A program made the position numbers and the translations under genes. From NCBI RefSeq assembly GCF_022761115.1, contig NZ_JAKWJS010000002.1, positions 186,001 through 250,000 on the forward strand: a stretch of DNA of 64,000 nt. The letters run 5' to 3'. Position 1 is the first letter of the stretch, and each line of letters begins with the position of its first letter. The DNA is from Dyella sp. RRB7. GTDB lineage: Bacteria > Pseudomonadota > Gammaproteobacteria > Xanthomonadales > Rhodanobacteraceae. The notes under the pieces are model-generated. The model was not told the DNA's origin. It made no database searches and saw nothing but the letters and a program-made list of their open reading frames with translations. Below, in pieces: positions 4,360-15,225 of the stretch.

Positions 4360-6603
4360 TTACTCGAAAGAGGGATTCTCCGCGTCGGTGGTCATGGCCG
4401 GCTCCAGTTCGAATACCGCAAACGATGGCGCCGGGCTCACCCATGTGCGCCGCACCAGCCAGCCGGCCATGCCGGCCAGGCGGCTGAACGCGCTTTCGGT
4501 GAACTTGTGCGAGTTTTCGGTATGGATGGATTCGCCCGCCTCAAACGATATCCAGCGGCCGGCCACCGAAACGGTCTGGTCGATGCGGCTGACCAGGTGC
4601 ATCTCGATGCGCTGGCGGGCCGCGTTCCAGCGCACGTTATGGAAAAACGTGTCCAGGTCGAAATTTCCATGCAATTCGCGGTTGATGCGCGCAAGCAGGT
4701 TCTTGTTGAAGCGCGCGGTGACGCCGCCGGCATCGTCGTAGGCATCGATAAGCGTACGCTCGTCCTTCACCATGTCCACGCCAACGATCAGGCGGGCGCG
4801 ATGGCCGAGCCGATCGAGCAGCAAACGCAGGAAGCCAATGGCTTCATCGTGGGTGAAGTTGCCGATGGTGGAACCGGGGAAGAAGCCCACCAGCGGCCGC
4901 TCGAGCAAGGCCGGCGGCAGATCGAAGGGCTGGGTGAAATCGGCGGTGATGGGCAACACCGGCAGCGCGGGATAATCGCGCGCCAATCGGTCCACGGCCT
5001 GGTCCAGCGCGCTCTGGCTAATATCCACCGGCACATAGGCCCCCAGCTGCGGCGCGGCATCGAGCAGCAGGCGCGTCTTGGTGCTCGCTCCGCTGCCCAG
5101 CTCCAGCAAGACGGCTTGCCCGGGAATATCCGCCGCGATGTCCTTGGCAATATCGGCCAACAAGGCGGTTTCCGTGCGCGTTGGATAATACTCCGGGGTC
5201 TGGCAGATGGCTTCGAATATCGCCGAGCCTGCCGCGTCGTAGAAATACTTGGGCGACAGGAATTTGGGTTGCGCACTCAAGCCGGCAATGACATCGCGGG
5301 CGAAGTCCGAAGGCGCATCGCGCGTCTCGTGCGGCGCCGTGGCGGCGACATCACGCGCCAGCCGCACGCCGGCAAACATCCAGCGTTGCTCGGGCCGGTA
5401 GAAGTTGCGGTAGCTGGGCCGTGTATGTCCGGGAGGCGTCACCTGGGCGCCACCGCGCAACACCATTTGACCGGCCATGAACTTGCCGTTGTATTCACCC
5501 AGGGCACCGCGCGCGGGCTGGTAACCGGGATACGGCATGTAGCTGCTCTGCGTCCACTGCCAGGCGCTGTCGAACAGCTGCGCCATGCCGCCCTGGCGCG
5601 CGGCATGCTCCCATTCCGCCTCGGTGGGCAGTCGCGCATGGGCCCACTGCGCATACGCCTGGGCTTCGTAATAGCTCACGTGCTGCACCGGCGCGCGGCG
5701 ATCGACCTGCCGCATGCCATACAGGGTCATGTACTCCCAGCCGTCGTGCGTGCGCTGCCAGTACAGCGGTGCTTCCCAGCCATGGGATTGCAACTGGTCC
5801 CAGCCGTCGGACAACCACAGCTCCGGGCGCTGGTAGCCGAGATCGGCCATGAAGGCCAGCCAGTCGCCATTGGTGACCAGGGTCTCGGCAATCTGGAAGG
5901 GCTCCAGCCAGACCGGGTGGGACGGCCCTTCATTGTCGAAGGCAAAGCCGTCGCCGTCATGCCCTATGCGTACCAACCCGCCCTCGTAGGACTTGAAACG
6001 ATGCGCCAATGACCGCGCCGGCCACGGCGACGCATCGAGGTAGGCCGGCCGCAGCGGCGACTGCGCGAAGAGATGGAGCACGTCCATCTGGATCAGCTCC
6101 TGATGCTGCTCTTCGTGCGCCAAGCCCAGTACGATCAGGTCGTGCCAACGCAGGGCGGCATCGGCAATCATCAGCGCGCGCATGTGCTGGTCCACGTGCT
6201 TGCGGTAGGCCAGCACTTCGTCGATGCCAGGGCGCGTCAGCAGGCCGCGCTGCGGGCGCGGGTGCCGGGCGCCCACAGCGTTGTAGTAGGAGTTGAACAG
6301 GAAGCCGAAGTCCGCATGGAATGGCACATAGTCGGCCCTGGCCTGCCTGAGCACGAAGGTTTCGAAAAACCACGTCGTGTGCGCGAGATGCCATTTCACC
6401 GGACTGGCGTCGGGCATGGACTGCACGGTCATGTCCTCGGCGCTTAGCGTGGCGATCAACGCCTGCGTGCGCGTGCGCACCGAACGGTATGCCTCCAGCA
6501 GGCGGCGACGCGCGTCGTCGCCCGGCAGGTCGCTGGCGTCGCTGGCTGGCGAGGCCACTCCATGCGGACGCGCAATACTCAGGCTTTGGCTGGACGTGGA
6601 CAT
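4360..6603 (-). CDS. egtBD: EgtB-EgtD fusion: ergothioneine biosynthesis sulfoxide synthase and histidine methyltransferase
   Basis: A single 747-residue protein joins two steps of ergothioneine synthesis. Residues about 30-418 are EgtB: a DinB-like domain with iron-binding histidines (HLAHTTWFF near 72-80 and HEEQHQE at 163-169) and an FGE-sulfatase fold ending RWMFAGVRLARD. Residues about 432-747 are EgtD, the SAM-dependent histidine trimethylase (SAQPKFLSPKYFYDAAGS, TPEYYPTRTETALL, then ELGSGASTKTRLLL). No stop and no Met separates the halves, so translation must be continuous. The ATG at 6603 replaces a much longer open frame whose first part is out-of-frame Old Yellow Enzyme sequence. 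It lies 20 bases behind that reductase gene in an apparent operon. egtA, egtC and egtE are not in the window. Confidence 0.93.
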   Translation of the reverse strand: MSTSSQSLSIARPHGVASPASDASDLPGDDARRRLLEAYRSVRTRTQALIATLSAEDMTVQSMPDASPVKWHLAHTTWFFETFVLRQARADYVPFHADFGFLFNSYYNAVGARHPRPQRGLLTRPGIDEVLAYRKHVDQHMRALMIADAALRWHDLIVLGLAHEEQHQELIQMDVLHLFAQSPLRPAYLDASPWPARSLAHRFKSYEGGLVRIGHDGDGFAFDNEGPSHPVWLEPFQIAETLVTNGDWLAFMADLGYQRPELWLSDGWDQLQSHGWEAPLYWQRTHDGWEYMTLYGMRQVDRRAPVQHVSYYEAQAYAQWAHARLPTEAEWEHAARQGGMAQLFDSAWQWTQSSYMPYPGYQPARGALGEYNGKFMAGQMVLRGGAQVTPPGHTRPSYRNFYRPEQRWMFAGVRLARDVAATAPHETRDAPSDFARDVIAGLSAQPKFLSPKYFYDAAGSAIFEAICQTPEYYPTRTETALLADIAKDIAADIPGQAVLLELGSGASTKTRLLLDAAPQLGAYVPVDISQSALDQAVDRLARDYPALPVLPITADFTQPFDLPPALLERPLVGFFPGSTIGNFTHDEAIGFLRLLLDRLGHRARLIVGVDMVKDERTLIDAYDDAGGVTARFNKNLLARINRELHGNFDLDTFFHNVRWNAARQRIEMHLVSRIDQTVSVAGRWISFEAGESIHTENSHKFTESAFSRLAGMAGWLVRRTWVSPAPSFAVFELEPAMTTDAENPSFE

Positions 6604-6623: not shown

Positions 6624-7748
6624 TCAGGCCACTTCCGTGGCGGACTGTTCGTCGTAGGCGGGGTAGTCGATGTAGTAGCGCTCGTCCCCGCCCCAGAAGG
6701 CCTCGCGGTGATAAGGCGTCAGCGGCAGGTTGCGGCGAAAGCGCTCGGGCAAATCGGGGTTGGACGCAAACCAGCGGCCGAACGCCACCAGGTCCGCATC
6801 GCCACGCTGCAGGATGGCTTCGGCGTCGTCGCGCCTGAACCCACCGGCGGCGATGATCGGCCCCTTGAATACCTTGCGCAGGAACGACGACGCGACCGGC
6901 GGCTGTCCTTCCACCAGCGTCTCGGTGCCCTTCACGCGCGGCTCGATCACATGCAGGTAGGCCAGGCCATAGGCATTGAGGCGATCGGCAAAGTAACCGA
7001 ACGTGGCCTCCGGGTTGCTGTCGGAAATGGCGCCCCACTGCCCGCTGGGCGACACGCGCACGCCCACGCGATCGGCACCCCATACGTCGGCAAAGGCCTC
7101 GACCACTTCCAGCGAGAAACGGGCACGGTTTTCCAGTGAGCCGCCGTAGGCGTCGGTGCGCTTGTTGGTGCCGTCCTGCAGGAAGGTGTCAGCCAGATAG
7201 CCGTTGGCGTTGTGCAATTCCACGCCGTCGAAGCCAGCCTGCTTCGCGCGCTCGGCGGCCTGCTTGAACGAGCGCACGATGGCGGGAATCTCGCCGATCT
7301 CCAGCGCGCGATGCATGGAATTGGGCACCCAGCCGTCCTGCGTGAACACCTGGGTTTCAAATGGCACCACCGACGGCGCGATGGGCGGATGGCCCCACGA
7401 AAGGTCCACGTGTGACTGGCGACCGTCATGCGCAATCTGCATGAAGATGCGCGCCCCTTTGGCATGCACGGCATCGGTGACCTTGCGCCACGCCTCGACG
7501 TGGGCATCCGTATAGATGCCGGGCGCGCCGATGTAGCCGCGGCTGTCGTAGGACGGATGGGCGCTTTCGGTCATCAGCAAGCCGCCCTGCGACGCGCGCT
7601 GGCGGTAGTACTCCACCATCATCGCGCTGGGGCTGTCATCCGGCTCCGAGCGCAGGCGCGTCATCGGCGCCAGCACCACGCGATGGTCCAGGTCGTAACG
7701 GCCCAGGCGAAAAGGCGAAAAGAGTTTCATGGCTTGGGAGGAAGACAT
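6624..7748 (-). CDS. Old Yellow Enzyme family alkene reductase (NemA-like)
   Basis: A 374-residue FMN-dependent flavoprotein that reduces activated double bonds or nitro groups with NAD(P)H. The family core is clear: LFSPFRLGRYDLDHRVVLAPMTRLR at the N-terminus, the substrate-binding pair in FDGVELHNANGYLADTFLQ, then TDAYGGSLENRARF and FGRWFASNPDLPERF at the phosphate-binding end. The ATG at 7748 has an AAGGA site; an inner ATG at 7730 is the alternative. It belongs to the LysR-linked operon, between an SDR and the ergothioneine fusion, which fits a role against electrophile or oxidative stress. Confidence 0.93.
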   Translation of the reverse strand: MSSSQAMKLFSPFRLGRYDLDHRVVLAPMTRLRSEPDDSPSAMMVEYYRQRASQGGLLMTESAHPSYDSRGYIGAPGIYTDAHVEAWRKVTDAVHAKGARIFMQIAHDGRQSHVDLSWGHPPIAPSVVPFETQVFTQDGWVPNSMHRALEIGEIPAIVRSFKQAAERAKQAGFDGVELHNANGYLADTFLQDGTNKRTDAYGGSLENRARFSLEVVEAFADVWGADRVGVRVSPSGQWGAISDSNPEATFGYFADRLNAYGLAYLHVIEPRVKGTETLVEGQPPVASSFLRKVFKGPIIAAGGFRRDDAEAILQRGDADLVAFGRWFASNPDLPERFRRNLPLTPYHREAFWGGDERYYIDYPAYDEQSATEVA

Positions 7749-7824
7749 GGTTCTAATCCTTGAAAAGTACGAGTCATGGCCCGAGCGGCGCGCCCGCCTG
7801 CTGGCGAAGGCGCGCAGCGATCGG

Positions 7825-8571
7825 TTACACCCTGGAACCGCCATCCACCCGCAGGGTGTCGCCGGTGATCCAGCGGGCATCGTCGGAAGCCAGGAAGGTG
7901 ACGGCGCCGGCAATGTCGTCGGGCTGGGCGATGCGCTTGATCGACTGCATGGCCAGGGTGACGTTGCGGCCCTCGTCGGTCTTGGTGAAGTTGGACATGT
8001 CGGTTTCCACCACGCCCGGCGCCACGGCGTTGACGCGGATACCGCGCGAGCCCAGGGCGGCGGCGAAGTGCTTCACCAAGGTGTCGATGGCACCCTTGGT
8101 GGAGGCGTAGGCGGAAAGATTGCCCACCGCCGTGCGCGCAGCCAGCGAGGAGGTGAAGATGATGCTGCTTCCCTCGCACATGGCACCCAGCAACTGCTGC
8201 ACCAGGAAGAACGGCGCGCGCACATTCACCGCAAACTGCTCATCAAAATCGGCAACGGTGGTGTCTTCGATGGTGGCGGCCCGGGAAATGCCGGCGTTGG
8301 CGACCAGGATGTCCAGTCGATCGCCGATGATGGCGCGAACCTTGCGCGCCAGTTCATGCGGCCCGTTCGACGCGCCAAGGTCGGCGCCGACTTTTTCCGC
8401 GCGGCCGCCGGCCTTGCGGATTTCCTCCACCACGGCATCCGCCTCCTGCTGCGAATTGCCGTAATGGACCAGTACCTGCGCACCGGCCTTGGCCAGCGCC
8501 AGGGCGGCAGCGCGGCCGATGCCGCGGGATGCGCCGGTGACCAGCGCGGTTTTACCAGTAAGGTGGCTCAT
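7825..8571 (-). CDS. SDR family oxidoreductase
   Basis: A 248-residue short-chain dehydrogenase. The NAD(P)-binding motif TGASRGIG is at residues 13-20, followed by NAG in ILVANAGIS. The catalytic Ser is in FTSSLAA and the YxxxK motif is YASTKGA. The C-terminus (ASDDARWITGDTLRVDGG) is typical of classical SDRs. A GGAG site precedes the ATG. It is the third gene of the hydrolase-to-egtBD operon, 76 bases ahead of the Old Yellow Enzyme gene. Substrate unknown. Confidence 0.92.
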   Translation of the reverse strand: MSHLTGKTALVTGASRGIGRAAALALAKAGAQVLVHYGNSQQEADAVVEEIRKAGGRAEKVGADLGASNGPHELARKVRAIIGDRLDILVANAGISRAATIEDTTVADFDEQFAVNVRAPFFLVQQLLGAMCEGSSIIFTSSLAARTAVGNLSAYASTKGAIDTLVKHFAAALGSRGIRVNAVAPGVVETDMSNFTKTDEGRNVTLAMQSIKRIAQPDDIAGAVTFLASDDARWITGDTLRVDGGSRV

Positions 8572-8609
8572 GATCGTGCTCCAAATCGTAAAGAGGGAGA
8601 GATAGGGGT

Positions 8610-9008
8610 TCAGGCGTCGAGCTGCTCGATGGCATCCACGCGATCCGGATAGAAGGCCAGGTGCGCCTTGATGGCGGCGACGGCTTCATACGGGTTCTCG
8701 TAGGTCCACACGGCATTGACCGTGCGTTCGCCGCCGACGGGAATGCTGTAGTACGCGCACTCGCCCTTGTACGGGCAGTAGGTAGCGTGATCGGTACGCT
8801 GCAGCAGCGACACGTCCACGTCTTCGCGGGGGATGTACTGCACGGCGGGATAGCTGGCTTCTTGCAGGGTCAGCGCGCGGCGCGTGTCGGCCACGATGCG
8901 TCCGGCCACCTTCACCACCACGCGACGCGGATTGGGCGTGATCGTGATGGGGTGATCGGGACCCGGCTGCTTGACGGTGCGGGTGGATGACGTTTGGGTG
9001 GAAGTCAT
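8610..9008 (-). CDS. DUF427 domain protein
   Basis: A 132-residue protein of the DUF427 family. Family features include RVVVKVAGRIVADT, the TYCPYKGECAYYS Cys-containing segment and AVWTYENPYEAVAAIKAHLAFYPDRVD. A strong AAGGAGAT ribosome site precedes the ATG. The molecular function of the family is not established. It sits 38 bases before the SDR gene and 72 bases after the hydrolase gene, within the LysR-linked operon. Confidence 0.92.
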   Translation of the reverse strand: MTSTQTSSTRTVKQPGPDHPITITPNPRRVVVKVAGRIVADTRRALTLQEASYPAVQYIPREDVDVSLLQRTDHATYCPYKGECAYYSIPVGGERTVNAVWTYENPYEAVAAIKAHLAFYPDRVDAIEQLDA

Positions 9009-9080: not shown

Positions 9081-9929
9081 TTACTGCCCAAGGAACGTGC
9101 TGACGTGCTGCACGAACAGCTCCGGATACTGGTACTGCGAGCCGTGGTTGGCGTCCGGATAGAGGATCAGCTGCGCGTTGGGAATGTGCTGCTGCAGGAG
9201 GTAGGAGTTGATGGTGTAGATGATCACGTCCGTTCCGCCGTTGATCACCAGGGTGGGCTGGTGCAGCTGCTTGAGGTAGTCATAAGGGTTCTCGCGCGGC
9301 GCGCCCCACTTGCCCAGCGCTTCGATCTGCGCCGGCGCCACCTTCTCGTTCACCTCCGGATCGCGGTCCTGCGTGCGCAGGCGGAAGCGCTGGAGGAAGG
9401 CGCGGCCGGCCGCCTGGCTGGCCGCGGAGTCGGTGAAGAACACCTTCAGCCACAGGTGATCGGGTTCGTCGTAGGTGGCGCCGAAGATCCGCTGCGCTTC
9501 GGGCGTGAGCGAGGCCATGCCCTCGCCGCTGCGCGGCCCGGTGCCGACCAGGACGAGCTTGCGCACCAGCCGCGGTTCGTCGATGGCCAACGTCTGCGCC
9601 ACCAGGCCGCCGAGCGAGAAACCCAGCACATCGACCTGGGTCAAGCCCAGCGCCTTGATGAAGGCCGCCGCATTCGCCGCCATGCCCTCGATGGTGGTGG
9701 GCACCTCGCCGGAGGAACTGGCGATGCCGGCGTTGTTGAACAGGATCACCTCGCGGTCCTTGGCCAGGCCATCGGTGATGAGCGGATCCCAGTGATCCAT
9801 GGTGCCGGTGAAGTGCATGTTGAGCACCAGCGGTACGCCGCCAGCCTTGCCGAAGCGGCGATAGGCGAAGCGGATGCCGTTGGCCTGGACGTACTGGGTC
9901 GGCGCGGTTTGGTGGGTATACGTGGTCAT
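9081..9929 (-). CDS. alpha/beta hydrolase
   Basis: A 282-residue alpha/beta-fold hydrolase. The nucleophile elbow is GFSLGG within VDVLGFSLGGLVAQTLA; a candidate acid lies in INGGTDVIIY and the His in YPDANHGSQYQYPELF. There is no signal peptide, so it acts in the cytoplasm. The ATG at 9929 has a GGAG site seven bases upstream; a longer frame to 10190 runs over the intergenic regulatory region and is not used. It is the first gene of the operon leading to egtBD and is divergent from the LysR gene. Substrate unknown. Confidence 0.9.
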   Translation of the reverse strand: MTTYTHQTAPTQYVQANGIRFAYRRFGKAGGVPLVLNMHFTGTMDHWDPLITDGLAKDREVILFNNAGIASSSGEVPTTIEGMAANAAAFIKALGLTQVDVLGFSLGGLVAQTLAIDEPRLVRKLVLVGTGPRSGEGMASLTPEAQRIFGATYDEPDHLWLKVFFTDSAASQAAGRAFLQRFRLRTQDRDPEVNEKVAPAQIEALGKWGAPRENPYDYLKQLHQPTLVINGGTDVIIYTINSYLLQQHIPNAQLILYPDANHGSQYQYPELFVQHVSTFLGQ

Positions 9930-10051: not shown

Positions 10052-10092
10052 GAAAAAGACTTTGTAAGCTGGATGGCATGCCTGCCAGGCAT
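10052..10092 (-). promoter_or_regulatory. LysR-type operator and promoter of the hydrolase-egtBD operon
   Basis: Read toward the hydrolase gene, the site is ATGCCTGGCAGGCAT (10092 to 10078), an 11-base spacer, then TACAAAGTCTTTTTC (10066 to 10052). The first part is an interrupted palindrome with the T-N11-A spacing of LysR boxes. TTTTCA (10056-10051) and TAGATT (10033-10028), 17 bases apart, could be the -35 and -10. The same layout occurs at 13837-13876. Confidence 0.7.
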
Positions 10093-10109
10093 GCCCCACG
10101 GAGCCAGCC

Positions 10110-11006
10110 ATGGAATTGCGCCATTTGCGGTATTTCGTCGCCGTCGCCGAGACCGGCAGCCTCACGGTGGCCGCCGAGCGCCGCCTGCATACCTCCCAGC
10201 CTTCACTCAGCCGGCAGATCAAGGACCTGGAGGACCAAGTTGGCGCCGATCTGCTGGTGCGCAGTGCACGCGGCGTCACGCTCACCGAAGCGGGCAAGGT
10301 GTTTTTCGATCACGCGCGACTGGCACTGAGCCAGGTGGATGCGGCGGTGGCCGCGGCCCGCAAGGCGGCACAACCGGGCAAGCAGCGCTTTGCGATGGGT
10401 TTTCTTACCGGGCAGGAAATGTCATGGCTGCCAGAAGCCATGCATATTCTTCGCGCCGAGTTGCCCAACATCGACGTCACCGTGTCGAGCGACTATTCGC
10501 CGGATCTGGCCGATGCCGTGGCACGTGGGCAATTGGACCTGGCGTTCCTGCGCGCCGAGCCGGACTACGACCTGACCTACCAACCGGTGATGCAAGAACC
10601 CCTGGTCGTACTGATGCCGAGCGACCATCGCCTGGCATCGCACCAGACGATTCGTCCGCAGGACCTGGTCGGCGAACCGTTCATCGGCATGGGCAACAAG
10701 GCCACGGTGTTGCGCGCGGTGATCGACGCCTACCTGGAGCAGGCCGGCGTAGCGATCACGCCCGGGCAAGTGGTGGACAACCCGGCCATGGTGATGTCGC
10801 TGGTGGCGTCCACGCGAGGCGTTACCTTGATTCCCGCTTATGCGCAAAACCTCATGCCGTGGTCGGTGGTGAGCCGCCCGCTCGCCGGCCAGGTGCCGAC
10901 CATCGATCTTGCGGTGGGTTACAGCAAGGCCAACCCCTCGCCCATCCTGAAGATGTTCTTGACGCACCTGGACGAACTTATGGCACGCGTCGCCGGCAAG
11001 GCGTAA
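10110..11006 (+). CDS. LysR family transcriptional regulator
   Basis: A 298-residue LysR-type regulator. The N-terminal winged helix-turn-helix is clear (MELRHLRYFVAVAETGSLTVAAERR, then TSQPSLSRQIKDLED), followed by the co-inducer-binding domain. GGAG precedes the ATG. It is divergent from the hydrolase operon, with a LysR-box palindrome between them. The same palindrome plus flanking motif occurs before the MFS gene at 13990, so this protein probably controls both. The inducer is unknown. Confidence 0.93.
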   Translation: MELRHLRYFVAVAETGSLTVAAERRLHTSQPSLSRQIKDLEDQVGADLLVRSARGVTLTEAGKVFFDHARLALSQVDAAVAAARKAAQPGKQRFAMGFLTGQEMSWLPEAMHILRAELPNIDVTVSSDYSPDLADAVARGQLDLAFLRAEPDYDLTYQPVMQEPLVVLMPSDHRLASHQTIRPQDLVGEPFIGMGNKATVLRAVIDAYLEQAGVAITPGQVVDNPAMVMSLVASTRGVTLIPAYAQNLMPWSVVSRPLAGQVPTIDLAVGYSKANPSPILKMFLTHLDELMARVAGKA

Positions 11007-11011
11007 TCGCG

Positions 11012-11608
11012 CTATGCCTTGCCGATGGCGGCGAGCAGATCCTCGCGCCCGTCGCGAAGAATTTCATCGGCCAATGCGGCGTCGACGTCCACCACCGCGC
11101 GTGACAGGAGCAGCGACCCCACCATCTGGCTGAACAGCGCAATGGCTTTCTTGCGCTTGTCCGCCGCATCGGCACCTTCGACGATGTCGGCGAGCTGTTC
11201 GAAGTTATGCGCCAGTCCTCGGGCGTAGCTTTCGCGGGCATCCCTGCCCAGCCGGCGCACATCGCCCGCGAAAACCGTCAAGGGGCAGCCGGCTTCGATA
11301 TCGGCGCGATGATCGGCCGATAGATACCACTCGATCTGGCGCGCCATCGGGTCCAGCGCCTTCTCACGGGATGCCGCAATGGCCGCGTCCCGCTCCTGCC
11401 CGCCCTGCTCCATCGCCTTTTCCAGCACGGCCGCGACCAGGGCGTCCTTGGACTTGAAGTGGTTGTAGAAGCCGCCCTGGGTAAACCCGGCGGCCTTGGT
11501 CAGCTCTGCCAGACCCACCGCCTCCACGCCCCGGGCACGGAACAGTTTTTCCGCAGCGGCGACAATAGCCTTTTTGTTTTCAATGGCTTGCTGCTTGGAA
11601 ACACCCAT
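11012..11608 (-). CDS. TetR/AcrR family repressor
   Basis: A 198-residue TetR-family regulator. The N-terminal helix-turn-helix reads EKLFRARGVEAVGLAELTKAAGFTQGGFYNHFKSKDAL. The C-terminal ligand-binding domain (CPLTVFAGDVRRLG...) resembles the YxaF/LmrA-like type. The ATG at 11608 has an AGGGAG site. It converges with the LysR gene (5-base gap) and is divergent from the chimeric oxidoreductase gene; palindromes between them are likely operators. Confidence 0.92.
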   Translation of the reverse strand: MGVSKQQAIENKKAIVAAAEKLFRARGVEAVGLAELTKAAGFTQGGFYNHFKSKDALVAAVLEKAMEQGGQERDAAIAASREKALDPMARQIEWYLSADHRADIEAGCPLTVFAGDVRRLGRDARESYARGLAHNFEQLADIVEGADAADKRKKAIALFSQMVGSLLLSRAVVDVDAALADEILRDGREDLLAAIGKA

Positions 11609-11655
11609 GGCACGGCTCCCTTCATGGCGGCGCCCGGCGGGCACCGCATCATCAC

Positions 11656-11724
11656 AATGTCGATCACCATTGACATTGCATCAGCGCAACGCCATGCTGA
11701 TGCCGTCGATGGTGATCACCATCG
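11656..11724. promoter_or_regulatory. palindrome cluster, probable TetR operators
   Basis: Three inverted repeats lie in the divergent gap: an imperfect 22-bp one at 11656-11677 (core GTCGATCACCATTGAC), arms GCATCAGC/GCTGATGC at 11678-11685 and 11696-11703, and a perfect 18-bp palindrome CGATGGTGATCACCATCG at 11707-11724. The first and third share the GATCACCAT core, as expected for two sites of one dimeric repressor. Confidence 0.6.
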
Positions 11725-11780
11725 TGTTTCCATTCTAGCGCAAGACCGGCCCAGGTCCAGCGCTAGCCGCCTGAGGACCC

Positions 11781-12530
11781 ATGACTATGCGCACAGTTCG
11801 AATTCACTCGTGGGGCGGGCCGGAGGTGCTGCGCCTGGAAGAACGGCCACCGGAAGTCCCCGGCCCAGGCGAAGTGCGCCTGCGCATCCGCGCCATCGGC
11901 CTCAACCGCACCGAGGCCACCCTGCGCTCCGGCCGCCTGCCGGCCCGGCCGCCGCTGCCCTCCAAGATCGGGTTCGAGGCGGCGGGCGAGATCGATGCGC
12001 TGGGCACCGGCGTCACGGGCTTTGCGGTGGGCGAGCGCGTGGCGGTGATCCCGGCCTTCAACGCCGCGCGATACGCCTTGTATGGCGAGCAGTCATTGGC
12101 GCCCGCGCGCTCACTGGTGCGCATACCCGACTCGGTGCGCGACGAGGAAACCCTGCCAACCGCCGAATACGTCATCAACCGCCTGAACGACTACGACCTG
12201 TCGCACCTGCTGCTGATGGGTACCAATACCGATGTCACCGGCAGCCCCCTGGAGCACCTGGCGGGCGACGGCATGTTCGCGCATTTCCGCAAGCTCTATC
12301 AGGGCACGCTGATCGCCAATGTCGAGATGGACGCCAGGCGCGCCGAGCGGCTGATTGCCGATGACCTCGCGGACATGATCGCGTTTGGACGTCCATACAT
12401 CGCCAACCCCGACCTGGTGGAGCGCCTGCAGTCCGGTGCGCCGCTGAACGACATCGACTGGCCCACCGTATACGCCTCCGGCCCTGCCGGTTACACCGAT
12501 TACCCCGTGCTTGCACGCGCGGCGGCCTGA
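11781..12530 (+). CDS. chimeric ORF: alcohol dehydrogenase N-terminus joined to Old Yellow Enzyme C-terminus
   Basis: A 249-residue open frame made of two unrelated enzyme parts. Residues 1 to about 123 are the GroES-like N-terminal domain of a zinc-type alcohol dehydrogenase/quinone reductase (GPGEVRLRIRAIGLNRTEA, IGFEAAGEIDALGTGVTGFAVGERV). From about residue 125 the sequence is the C-terminal third of an Old Yellow Enzyme (YVINRLNDYDLSHLLL, then DMIAFGRPYIANPDLVERL and YTDYPVL). The dehydrogenase lacks its Rossmann domain; the reductase lacks its FMN-binding front half and catalytic residues. The junction is near 12150. The likely origin is an in-frame deletion between two neighbouring genes. 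Either enzyme activity is unlikely, though the frame is intact and lies behind probable TetR operators. Confidence 0.8.
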   Translation: MTMRTVRIHSWGGPEVLRLEERPPEVPGPGEVRLRIRAIGLNRTEATLRSGRLPARPPLPSKIGFEAAGEIDALGTGVTGFAVGERVAVIPAFNAARYALYGEQSLAPARSLVRIPDSVRDEETLPTAEYVINRLNDYDLSHLLLMGTNTDVTGSPLEHLAGDGMFAHFRKLYQGTLIANVEMDARRAERLIADDLADMIAFGRPYIANPDLVERLQSGAPLNDIDWPTVYASGPAGYTDYPVLARAAA

Positions 12531-12552
12531 CCCTTCCCCTCCGAGGTTTCCC

Positions 12553-12954
12553 ATGTCCAAGACCACTCCCGAACAAAACAAGGCGCTCGTGCTCAAGGCT
12601 TTCGACACGCTGTTCAACCAGCGCGACTACGAAGCGGCGGCCCGGTTCTGGTCCGATCGCTACATCCAGCACAGCGCGCATATCGAGCCGGGTCGCGAAG
12701 GCCTGTTCAACCTGATTCGCAGCGCGCCGGCCAGCCTGCGCTACGAGCCCGGCCTGATCCTTGCCGAAGGCGACTACGTGATCGTGCACGGCCGCTTCTC
12801 GGGCAACGGCCGACCGGCGGCGTGGATTGCGGCCGACGTCGTGCGCATTGAAAACGGCGTACTGGCCGAGCACTGGGACGTACTGCAAGACGAAGCCACT
12901 CAAGCCGAATCCAAGAGTGGCCTGCCGATGTTCGGCACGCACTTTCCTTCCTGA
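12553..12954 (+). CDS. SnoaL-like/NTF2-fold protein
   Basis: A 133-residue nuclear-transport-factor-2 fold protein of the SnoaL-like type (NKALVLKAFDTLFNQRDYEAAARFWSDRYIQHSAHIEPGR, then GDYVIVHGRFSGNGR and DVVRIENGVLAEHWDVLQDE). Relatives are often predicted isomerases or small-molecule-binding proteins; no specific role can be given. The ATG at 12553 has a GAGG site. It lies between the chimeric gene and an SDR, all on one strand downstream of the TetR-controlled promoter. Confidence 0.88.
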   Translation: MSKTTPEQNKALVLKAFDTLFNQRDYEAAARFWSDRYIQHSAHIEPGREGLFNLIRSAPASLRYEPGLILAEGDYVIVHGRFSGNGRPAAWIAADVVRIENGVLAEHWDVLQDEATQAESKSGLPMFGTHFPS

Positions 12955-12970
12955 ATCCGGAGAACCTGTC

Positions 12971-13729
12971 ATGAAGCTCACTGGCAACACTGTTTTCATC
13001 ACTGGCGGCGGCTCGGGCATCGGTCGCGCCCTGGCCGAGGCACTGCACCAACGCGGCAACAAGATCATCATCGCCGGCCGCCGCCGCGCCCAGCTTGACG
13101 AGGTGGTGGCGGCCAACCCCGGGATCGATGCCGTGGAACTGGACGTGGCCAACCCGGCCAGCATCGAGGCCGTGGCCGCCGACCTGATCGCCAGGTATCC
13201 CACCCTCAATGTGCTGTTCAACAACGCGGGCGTGATGCTGATGGACAACGCCGCTGGCGTGATGGACGAAAAGACGCTGCAGACGCATATCGCCATCAAC
13301 CTGCTGGGCCCCATTCGCCTCACCTCGGCCTTGATCGAACATCTCAAGCAGCAGAAGCAGGCCACCCTGCTGTACAACACCTCCACGCTGGCCTTCACGC
13401 CGCTGGCGCCGTTCGCGGTGTATTCCGCCACCAAGGCGGCGCTGCATTCATTCGTGATGTCGCAGCGATTCCTGCTGCGCGACACCTCGGTCAAGGTGCA
13501 GGAGATCGCGCCACCGTGGGTGGCCACCGGCCTGGTGGGCGACGCGAATGACCCGCGTGCGATGCGCCTTGACCATTTTGTCGAAGGCACGCTCGCCGCG
13601 CTGGAGACCGATGCGGAAGAAGTACTGGTGGACGAAGCGCTGGTCTACCGCAACAACCCGGGCCCCAAGGAACACGCCTTCGTCACCGAGCTCAACACCT
13701 TCATGACCAAGGAGCTGGCTGCCGCATGA
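12971..13729 (+). CDS. SDR family oxidoreductase
   Basis: A 252-residue short-chain dehydrogenase of the DltE-like type. The cofactor motif is TGGGSGIG at residues 11-18, followed by NNAGV, a Ser-Thr stretch (NTSTLAFTPLA) and the catalytic YSATKAA. It follows the NTF2-fold gene by 16 bases and ends the TetR-controlled transcript, with a strong hairpin just beyond its stop. Substrate unknown. Confidence 0.92.
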   Translation: MKLTGNTVFITGGGSGIGRALAEALHQRGNKIIIAGRRRAQLDEVVAANPGIDAVELDVANPASIEAVAADLIARYPTLNVLFNNAGVMLMDNAAGVMDEKTLQTHIAINLLGPIRLTSALIEHLKQQKQATLLYNTSTLAFTPLAPFAVYSATKAALHSFVMSQRFLLRDTSVKVQEIAPPWVATGLVGDANDPRAMRLDHFVEGTLAALETDAEEVLVDEALVYRNNPGPKEHAFVTELNTFMTKELAAA

Positions 13730-13739
13730 CGCCATGCAT

Positions 13740-13773
13740 GCACCCTGCCCGCGCGAAATCGCCGGCAGGGTGC
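13740..13773 (+). terminator. terminator-like hairpin
   Basis: A ten-base perfect stem (GCACCCTGCC/GGCAGGGTGC) begins 11 bases after the SDR stop. There is no U tract, so it may be a weak or Rho-assisted terminator. Confidence 0.5.
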
Positions 13774-13836
13774 CCAAGGGTTGACGTGGCGCCACCCGCC
13801 TGCGCGTTGGCATGTAGCACGCGCACCAGCATGGCG

Positions 13837-13876
13837 ATGCCTGTCAGGCATGGTGGCTTGCCTACAAAGTCTTTTC
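13837..13876 (+). promoter_or_regulatory. LysR-type operator before the MFS gene, second copy
   Basis: ATGCCTGTCAGGCAT (13837-13851), an 11-base spacer, then TACAAAGTCTTTTC (13863-13876). Sequence and spacing match the site before the hydrolase operon at 10092-10052. TAGCTT at 13896-13901 is a possible -10. This links the MFS gene to the LysR regulator at 10110. Confidence 0.7.
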
Positions 13877-13989
13877 GTTGATCGCCAGGCCGGCGTAGCT
13901 TGCGCACCCGCAACATGGCCTTGCACCGGATGCGCCACCCGGCGTCGCCGGGCATCCCTTCCTTCAATCCACTACGCAGGTCATCCCCT

Positions 13990-15225
13990 ATGGACGGCTC
14001 GACGTCTCCGGCTGCTTCGGCGGCCATGCATCGCGGATCACTTTACCTCCTTGCCCTGGGTACCTTCGCGGTAGGCACGGAGGGTTTCATGATCGCCGGC
14101 ATCCTGCCCAGGATCGCCAGCGACCTGGCGGTCACCGCGACGGCGGTCGGCCAGCTGGTCACCGTGTTCGCCTTTGCCTATGCGCTCAGCTCGCCCATCC
14201 TCACGGCGCTGAGCGGCCACATGAAGCGCAGCACCGTGCTGGTGGGCGCCATGGGCATGTTCGTGGCCGCCAACCTTTTCGCGGCCATCGCGCCGGGATA
14301 CCCCTGGCTGATGGCGGCACGCGTGCTGCTGGCCTTTTCCGCCGGCCTGTATGTACCGGGTGCCAACGCCCTGGCCGGCGCGCTGGTACCACCCAATCGC
14401 CGGGGTTTTGCCATCGCCATCATCAACGCGGGGCTCACGGTGGCGATTGCCCTGGGCGTGCCCCTGGGGACGCTGGTTGCCACCGTGTTGAGTTGGCGCA
14501 TGACTTTCGTCGGCGTGGCGGTGCTCTCGGCCATCGCGCTAACCGGCCTATGGATCGGCTTGCCCAAGGACATCGGTGCGCACCTGCCGGTAGCGAGCCT
14601 GCGCGAGCGCTTCAACGTCGCGCGTCGTCCCGCGGTGCTGGCTACCTTGCTGGTCACCACGCTATGGGCGACGGGTGCCTACACCATGTACACGTACCTG
14701 GCGATCTTTCTGCGCGAAGTCACCGGCATCCACGGCGCACAGGTGGGCTACATCCTGTTCACCTGGGGCGTATCGGCTGGCGTGGGCGTGCTGTACGGCG
14801 GCAAGCTGGTGGATCGCCTTGGCGCACGCGTCGTGATCTTGCCGTGCCTGCTGCTGGGCGGGCTTTCGTTTGTAGTGCTGTCGGCCACCGCGCACTTCGT
14901 ACCGACGGCCTATGCCCTGGCGCCGGTCGTGCTTGCCGTGGTGGTGTGGGGCCTCACTCACTGGGGCTTCTACCCTGGCCAGCAGGCGCGCCTCATGGGT
15001 ATCGCCGGCCTGCATCTGGCCCCGATCGCGCTGTCGCTCAATGCGTCCTTCATGTACCTGGGTTTCTCGCTCGGCGCCGGCATGGGCTCGCTGATCATGC
15101 TGTACAGCCACGCCGCCAATCTCGGCTGGGGTGCCGCGGCATTCGAGCTGGCCGCCCTGGCCCTGATGACATGGCTCAGCAGGGCTGAAGCAGGCGCCCC
15201 GGCCGAGTCCAGCGGCAACGCCTAG
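13990..15225 (+). CDS. MFS transporter (AraJ/YdhP-like)
   Basis: A 411-residue major facilitator transporter with about twelve membrane helices. The opening LALGTFAVGTEGFMIAGILPRIASDL and the helix 4-5 region (GALVPPNRRGFAIAIINAGLTVAIALGVPLGT) are typical of the sugar-efflux/chloramphenicol-resistance type of MFS exporter. The ATG at 13990 has AGGT upstream; in-frame starts to 13900 exist but would run into the probable promoter. It shares an operator motif with the hydrolase-egtBD operon. The gene overlaps the end of a convergent AraC gene by four bases. Confidence 0.9.
   Translation: MDGSTSPAASAAMHRGSLYLLALGTFAVGTEGFMIAGILPRIASDLAVTATAVGQLVTVFAFAYALSSPILTALSGHMKRSTVLVGAMGMFVAANLFAAIAPGYPWLMAARVLLAFSAGLYVPGANALAGALVPPNRRGFAIAIINAGLTVAIALGVPLGTLVATVLSWRMTFVGVAVLSAIALTGLWIGLPKDIGAHLPVASLRERFNVARRPAVLATLLVTTLWATGAYTMYTYLAIFLREVTGIHGAQVGYILFTWGVSAGVGVLYGGKLVDRLGARVVILPCLLLGGLSFVVLSATAHFVPTAYALAPVVLAVVVWGLTHWGFYPGQQARLMGIAGLHLAPIALSLNASFMYLGFSLGAGMGSLIMLYSHAANLGWGAAAFELAALALMTWLSRAEAGAPAESSGNA

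Follow-up and report, generated by a model that had tools for sequence, protein, structure and literature searches.

The window analysed here is a 64,000-nucleotide stretch of a contig of Dyella sp. RRB7 (NZ_JAKWJS010000002.1, positions 186,001 to 250,000). It contains a gene for a LysR-type regulator (lysR) that diverges from an operon encoding an alpha/beta hydrolase, a DUF427 protein, a short-chain dehydrogenase (SDR), an old-yellow-enzyme (OYE) flavoprotein and a fused EgtB-EgtD protein (egtBD) of ergothioneine synthesis, and, further along the plus strand, a gene for an MFS transporter (Table 1). A composite motif, ATGCCTGnCAGGCAT-N11-TACAAAGTCTTTT, is present twice in this window, once between lysR and the hydrolase operon (10092-10054, minus strand) and once ahead of the MFS gene (13837-13875, plus strand). 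Site 1 has the layout ATGCCTGGCAGGCAT-11-TACAAAGTC (10092-10058, with a T run reaching 10053) and site 2 the layout ATGCCTGTCAGGCAT-11-TACAAAGTC (13837-13871, with a T run reaching 13875). The original prediction had read these as two operators of LysR, through which one regulator would control an exporter and an operon that includes ergothioneine synthesis. Both sites exist where it had placed them, with outer ends that are 1-2 bases off, which is immaterial; the T-N11-A spacing that it gave for the palindrome is correct, and lysR, starting at 10110, does adjoin the first site, 17 nt from its palindrome. Candidate -10 boxes lie exactly 24 nt past TACAAAGTC at both sites.

Table 1. Genes and candidate regulatory elements of the LysR locus (window coordinates)
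Feature	Position	Strand	Basis and remarks
LysR-type regulator, 298 aa	10110..11006	plus	Pfam HTH_1 and LysR_substrate; no cysteine
Alpha/beta hydrolase, first gene of the operon	9081..9929	minus	Pfam Abhydrolase_1
DUF427 protein	8610..9008	minus	Pfam PF04248
Short-chain dehydrogenase SDR1	7825..8571	minus	Pfam, gene maps; most frequent target gene in related loci
OYE flavoprotein, N-ethylmaleimide-reductase-like	6624..7748	minus	NCBIfam NF007899, 353.4 bits, cut-off 403 not reached
Fused EgtB-EgtD (ergothioneine synthesis)	4360..6603	minus	TIGR03440 526.9 bits and TIGR03438 375.1 bits, one open reading frame
MFS transporter, 411 aa, Cmx/CmrA-like drug-exporter branch	13990..15225	plus	Pfam MFS_1; best NCBIfam model NF033135, 186.6 bits, below cut-off 400
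Site 1, primary dyad ATGCCTGGCAGGCAT	10078..10092	minus	Pattern scan; core conserved in 36 aligned related loci
Site 1, probable second dyad GCTTACAAAGT	10059..10069	minus	21 bp from primary dyad; centre about -44
Site 2, primary dyad ATGCCTGTCAGGCAT	13837..13851	plus	Ahead of MFS gene; profile match
Site 2, probable second dyad GCCTACAAAGT	13860..13870	plus	21 bp from primary dyad
Hydrolase operon, candidate -10 box TAGATT	10033-10028	minus	Footprint columns 60-65; likely -35 TTTTCA 17 nt before
MFS promoter, candidate -10 box TAGCTT	13896..13901	plus	Spacing equals that of site 1

Could such a pair of sites have arisen by chance? Shuffling the window 100 times with its dinucleotide composition kept gave an expected count of 0.00 for the composite motif. 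In the whole genome of the strain (4,079,393 bases in 19 contigs), ATGCCTGNCAGGCAT with at most one mismatch occurs only at the two window sites, and the same pattern read backwards has zero occurrences. A profile built from 36 sites of other genomes recovered site 1 with 67.5 bits (E = 3e-18) and site 2 with 39.4 bits (E = 1.8e-9); the only further match in this genome up to E = 10, in a search that pre-filters its candidates, was the reverse strand of the site 1 dyad (E = 0.375). A chance origin of the motif is ruled out by the shuffles, the genome scans and the backwards controls, and the genome scan that had been proposed finds the motif not scattered but restricted to two places. We also considered that the two copies might be a recent duplication, of a mobile repeat or a copied promoter, that has nothing to do with common regulation, as the near-identity of the palindromes and the identity of TACAAAGTC at both places might suggest. 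But the 11-nt spacers and the flanks of the two copies differ, and the same bases are kept across genera and orders while their surroundings are not; with conservation confined to the operator region, we rejected this explanation as extremely improbable.

Conservation was traced in 45 loci of named genomes with LysR relatives (Dyella, Luteibacter, Paraburkholderia, Cupriavidus and others). Forty of these loci, from 38 genomes, contain all or nearly all of lysR; L042 and L044-L047, which are partial or distant, were excluded. In 39 of the 40 loci, the 2.2 kb upstream of lysR contain a match (at most 3 mismatches) to a degenerate pattern that was itself built from such sites, so that the regulator gene stands beside the site as in other LysR operators; the backwards pattern was absent from all 40. 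In the fortieth locus (L020), a site with a 12-nt spacer precedes the SDR genes that stand before lysR. The site diverges from lysR, at 5-31 nt from its start, in 36 of the 40 loci, and in three others (L025, L026 and L033) the SDR genes and lysR are co-directional downstream of it. The conservation that had been anticipated in relatives that keep lysR is therefore borne out, both by these 39 loci and by a profile match in every one of the 19 LysR-bearing genomes of the family. One Cupriavidus genome (L009, L010 and L014) has three paralogues of the window LysR, each with its own site, and the site variants TACTAAGTC and TTTAAAGTC found there may mark diverged specificities.

How is the operator built? 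In an alignment of 36 related loci, with the site columns numbered from 0, conservation falls nearly entirely within columns 0 to 77, a footprint of about 80 nt in an otherwise variable intergenic region: single columns reach at most 0.45 bits past column 80 and at most 0.3 bits ahead of column -2. The footprint consists of CATGCYTnnnARGYATG, then GCTTAcwAAGTCTTTTTCA (columns 24-42), and then TAgATT (columns 60-65). The last of these, the -10 columns, lay outside every search pattern and yet is conserved, and TTTTCA (columns 37-42), with a 17-nt spacer to the -10, is likely the -35 region. With transcription assumed to begin about 7 nt past the -10 box, near column 72, the first dyad, whose centre is column 8, would lie at about -65; the predicted starts in the window would be at about 10021 (minus) and 13908 (plus). 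TACAAAGTC likely forms the right-hand portion of another, weaker dyad, GCYTnnnARGY, which lies 21 bp, or two helical turns, from the first; the dyad block best matches the downstream sequence when shifted by 21, and 30 of the 36 loci have GCYTnnnARGY at both dyad positions. The original prediction had described a palindrome, 11 nt and TACAAAGTCTTTT; these elements are all present, but they are better parsed as two dyads 21 bp apart followed by a -35 region. The spacer is 11 nt in 68 of 73 distinct sites, 10 nt in one and 12 nt in four, a count biased to 11 because many loci were retrieved by an 11-nt pattern.

Passages of PMC8407307 describe the LysR box, the usual positions of the recognition and activation sites, the general geometry of LysR operators and the sliding-dimer model. 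The features of such an operator recur here, with T-N11-A within the dyad near -65 and a second, activation-type site near -35 in the block of columns 24-42, for which the support from column shuffles is modest. As judged from the fixed-spaced -10 box, the dyads at about -65 and -44 would be the classical LysR recognition site and activation site. The second block also holds another overlapping dyad, AAAGtCTTT, which would fit the needs of a sliding-dimer mechanism. Neither promoter was picked up by a simple sigma-70 consensus scan of the window, and both are therefore weak by consensus; they are backed instead by the conservation of the -10 columns in the footprint. Because the second dyad lies directly against the -35 region, a dimer bound there could block the polymerase, and LysR might mainly repress both units until a ligand relieves it, rather than activate them. 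The -35/-10 pair, however, is poor by consensus, and the sites occupy the usual LysR recognition and activation positions as given in those passages of PMC8407307, so that we regard a mainly repressive role as unlikely.

Does the operator occur together with the regulator? We counted co-occurrence per genome in 233 genomes of the family, 19 of which carry LysR at E <= 1e-100 and 214 of which do not. The window-derived pattern (at most 3 mismatches) was found in 15 of the 233 genomes, that is, in 13 of the 19 with LysR versus 2 of the 214 others (p = 4e-15), and its backwards control in none of the 233. The profile, a sequence-only model of the 36 related-locus sites that excludes the window and whose E-values are rough, was run over the family with stricter filters; it matches 19 of 19 LysR-bearing genomes versus 10 of 214 others, or 3 of 214 without weak partial matches. 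Seven of the matched LysR genomes (G000, G069, G102, G110, G111, G120 and G193) lie outside the training set, with E-values from 3e-18 to 6.4e-4. The matches set aside as weak and partial number eight, in eight genomes (model positions 19-53 or 19-54, E = 0.006-0.009); all eight genomes are without LysR at E = 1e-100 and seven are without any other match, and the two such matches that were inspected (L182 and L183) fall in the same protein-coding frame, at its beginning.

Sites per genome were counted for 37 of the 45 named-genome loci, omitting L010 and L014 (from the same genome as L009), L021, L042 and L044-L047. All 37 LysR-bearing genomes have 1-4 sites each, a result that is partly circular in that the pattern was drawn from these loci, and the backwards pattern has no match in any of them. 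For 62 of 69 distinct sites, the two in the window included, a homologue of a window protein is encoded among the first three open reading frames called downstream, mostly an SDR, hydrolase, DUF427 or OYE protein, with SDR matches at 35-40% showing the superfamily only. For the other seven, none of the downstream frames (at most three per site, crudely called) gave such a match; at L040, one of the seven, tblastn shows an SDR. The MFS homologue is present at E = 1e-100 in 3 of the 233 family genomes. Besides the genome of the window itself, G193 is the sole one with both LysR and an MFS homologue, and it keeps both sites: on the LysR side it has hydrolase, DUF427, SDR, OYE and fused EgtBD, as in the window, and on the other side TetR, alcohol dehydrogenase (ADH), a second OYE, SnoaL, SDR2 and MFS. 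The third genome, G053, is without LysR at E = 1e-50, and its MFS locus (4.2 kb) has no site within 6 mismatches at a fixed spacer.

What kind of regulator might read these sites? Both the N-terminal HTH_1 and the LysR_substrate domain of the window protein score above the Pfam cut-off, which makes it a member of the LysR type. Its nearest NCBIfam model is HcaR, at 264.6 bits and thus under the equivalog cut-off of 356, so that it does not qualify as HcaR itself, and its nearest solved structure is 7w06, a LysR-family protein matched over nearly its full length (E = 1.6e-39). There are no cysteines in the window LysR, and no alignment column has five or more among 40 sequences, a count from which L037 was excluded for its frame-shifted LysR; an OxyR-like thiol sensor is not indicated, and thiol redox sensing by the window LysR is disfavoured. 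With no cysteine in LysR and none conserved in its relatives, the protein more likely responds to a bound ligand than to thiol oxidation. From the nature of the target enzymes, our guess is that this ligand is a reactive carbonyl, enone, quinone-type or aromatic (acid) compound.

The sites, their uniqueness in the genome, their conservation and geometry and their co-occurrence with the LysR gene are direct observations, and we consider it highly probable that both sites are operator-promoters of the LysR protein encoded at 10110, which would activate the hydrolase-DUF427-SDR-OYE-egtBD operon and the MFS exporter gene. We propose that LysR would bind as a tetramer, with one dimer on the strong dyad ATGCYTnnnARGYAT, centred at about -65, and the other on the weaker dyad GCYTacwARGY at about -44, two helical turns away and adjoining the poor -35 (TTTTCA) and the conserved -10 (TAgATT). 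The ligand-bound protein would then activate the two units, presumably with read-through into egtBD. Because the site 1 dyad lies only 17 nt before lysR, LysR bound there would probably also repress its own gene. The proposal that one regulator governs an exporter and an ergothioneine-containing operon is in this way supported by a motif that is not scattered and that is kept in LysR-bearing relatives.

Several observations weigh against this reading. Column shuffles give the second dyad p = 0.03 for direct similarity and p = 0.07 for palindromy, and because of these values the two-dyad arrangement is likely rather than proven. The MFS site has the poorer -10 and scores 39.4 bits as against 67.5 at site 1, and the MFS site of G193 is weak (E = 0.0014) and matches only the first 39 positions of the model. 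In G102 and G110, whose LysR proteins are 59% and 55% identical to that of the window, site and LysR are apart, the profile match being about 1.1 Mb and 59 kb away, respectively; beside the G102 LysR the only site is one with a 12-nt spacer, and beside the G110 LysR (L086) there is none within 6 mismatches, so that in G110 operator and regulator are not adjacent. Furthermore, G173, G053 and G074 have sites without a close LysR homologue, the one in G053 being a weak match (E = 0.008); the best matches to the N-terminal 87 residues of LysR in these genomes have 48-53% identity. These orphan sites precede GST-egtBD in G173 (L093:6102, plus), a zinc-type quinone oxidoreductase/ADH gene in G053 (L092:7031, minus) and DUF427, beside SDR2-SnoaL-TetR, in G074 (L177:7440-7506, minus), and another, possibly LysR-type, regulator may read them, or they may be relics. 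Might such a different regulator read the window sites as well, with the neighbouring LysR as a bystander? The match in all 19 LysR genomes, as opposed to a small minority of the others, argues otherwise, as do the short distance of 5-31 nt between the dyad and the start of lysR in the 36 aligned loci and the fact that the adjacent TetR gene has a candidate operator of its own, and we judge a different regulator to be very unlikely.

A further point of the same kind concerns the ergothioneine genes. Among 43 related loci, with flanks of up to about 6 kb, egtB or egtD is present in only three (L009, L017 and L018), and for this reason egtBD is an occasional rather than a core member of the regulon; the exporter, too, is an occasional member. 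The transcript might end, or an extra promoter might start, before egtBD, which would leave a regulon of exporter and reductases without ergothioneine synthesis. The gaps in the operon, however, are 72, 38, 76 and 20 nt, the last between OYE and egtBD, and no terminator-like site was found in them on the coding strand; the OYE-egtBD order recurs in G193, and in G173 GST-egtBD stands behind a site that fits the degenerate pattern with zero mismatches. Operon continuity and this one relative therefore suggest that LysR controls the ergothioneine genes, and egtBD would be co-induced with the rest of the operon; its exclusion is the less likely alternative, though a serious one. Besides the window, four related loci (L091, L093, L099 and L179) have the two proteins fused in one open reading frame in the order EgtB-EgtD.

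In a wider sense, we tentatively propose, with somewhat less than even confidence, that one LysR regulon links an exporter to enone/quinone-type detoxification (OYE, SDR, hydrolase, GST and quinone oxidoreductase) in Rhodanobacteraceae-type genera (Dyella, Luteibacter) and Burkholderiales, that ergothioneine synthesis is coupled to these in several lineages, and that the regulon works through an operator with three overlapping half-sites (CTTacwAAGtCTT) such as a sliding-dimer switch would use. No description of this LysR regulon was found among the titles and abstract openings of the open-access papers searched; the class of mechanism is already known, and the regulon itself appears to be undescribed there. 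One lead, PMC6653060, proved false, as it concerns type VI secretion. The result provides a highly specific operator for a widespread, unnamed LysR clade, together with a short list of targets per genome. If egtBD responds, ergothioneine would be made on demand beside electrophile-detoxifying enzymes, and DUF427, encoded in the same operon, would gain a context.

Two other features lie between lysR and the MFS gene. The open reading frame at 11781-12530 (plus) combines the N-terminal portion of a zinc-type alcohol dehydrogenase with the C-terminal portion of an OYE, and it looks like an in-frame deletion fusion because G193 (L091) encodes ADH (7863-8849, minus) and OYE (6713-7909, minus) separately. 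The TetR and ADH genes diverge, and ATGGTGATCACCAT-like palindromes lie between them at 11657-11670 and 11709-11722, one of the two degenerate, with copies in G193 (L091) at 8909-8922 and 8960-8973; this palindrome is a likely TetR operator.

How do these sites compare with known systems? BenM and CatM exemplify classical LysR operators, with a T-N11-A recognition site near -65 and an activation site towards -35. The operators described here resemble these in the T-N11-A dyad at about -65, as reckoned from the -10 box, in the second site at about -44 and in the divergent regulator gene, but they differ in that both dyads share GCYTnnnARGY together with a strongly conserved block, AAAGTCTTT, and in their other sequence and targets. 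HcaR, the best-scoring named LysR family for the window regulator, controls a phenylpropionate dioxygenase operon; in contrast, the window targets are not such an operon and the score remains below the family cut-off. The protein of structure 7w06, which we take to be an itaconate-responsive regulator, is of a different subfamily from the window LysR. Finally, NemR is a TetR-family thiol sensor that controls an OYE/N-ethylmaleimide-reductase gene. A gene of this kind is also among the proposed targets of the window regulator, which, unlike NemR, is of the LysR type and has no conserved cysteine.

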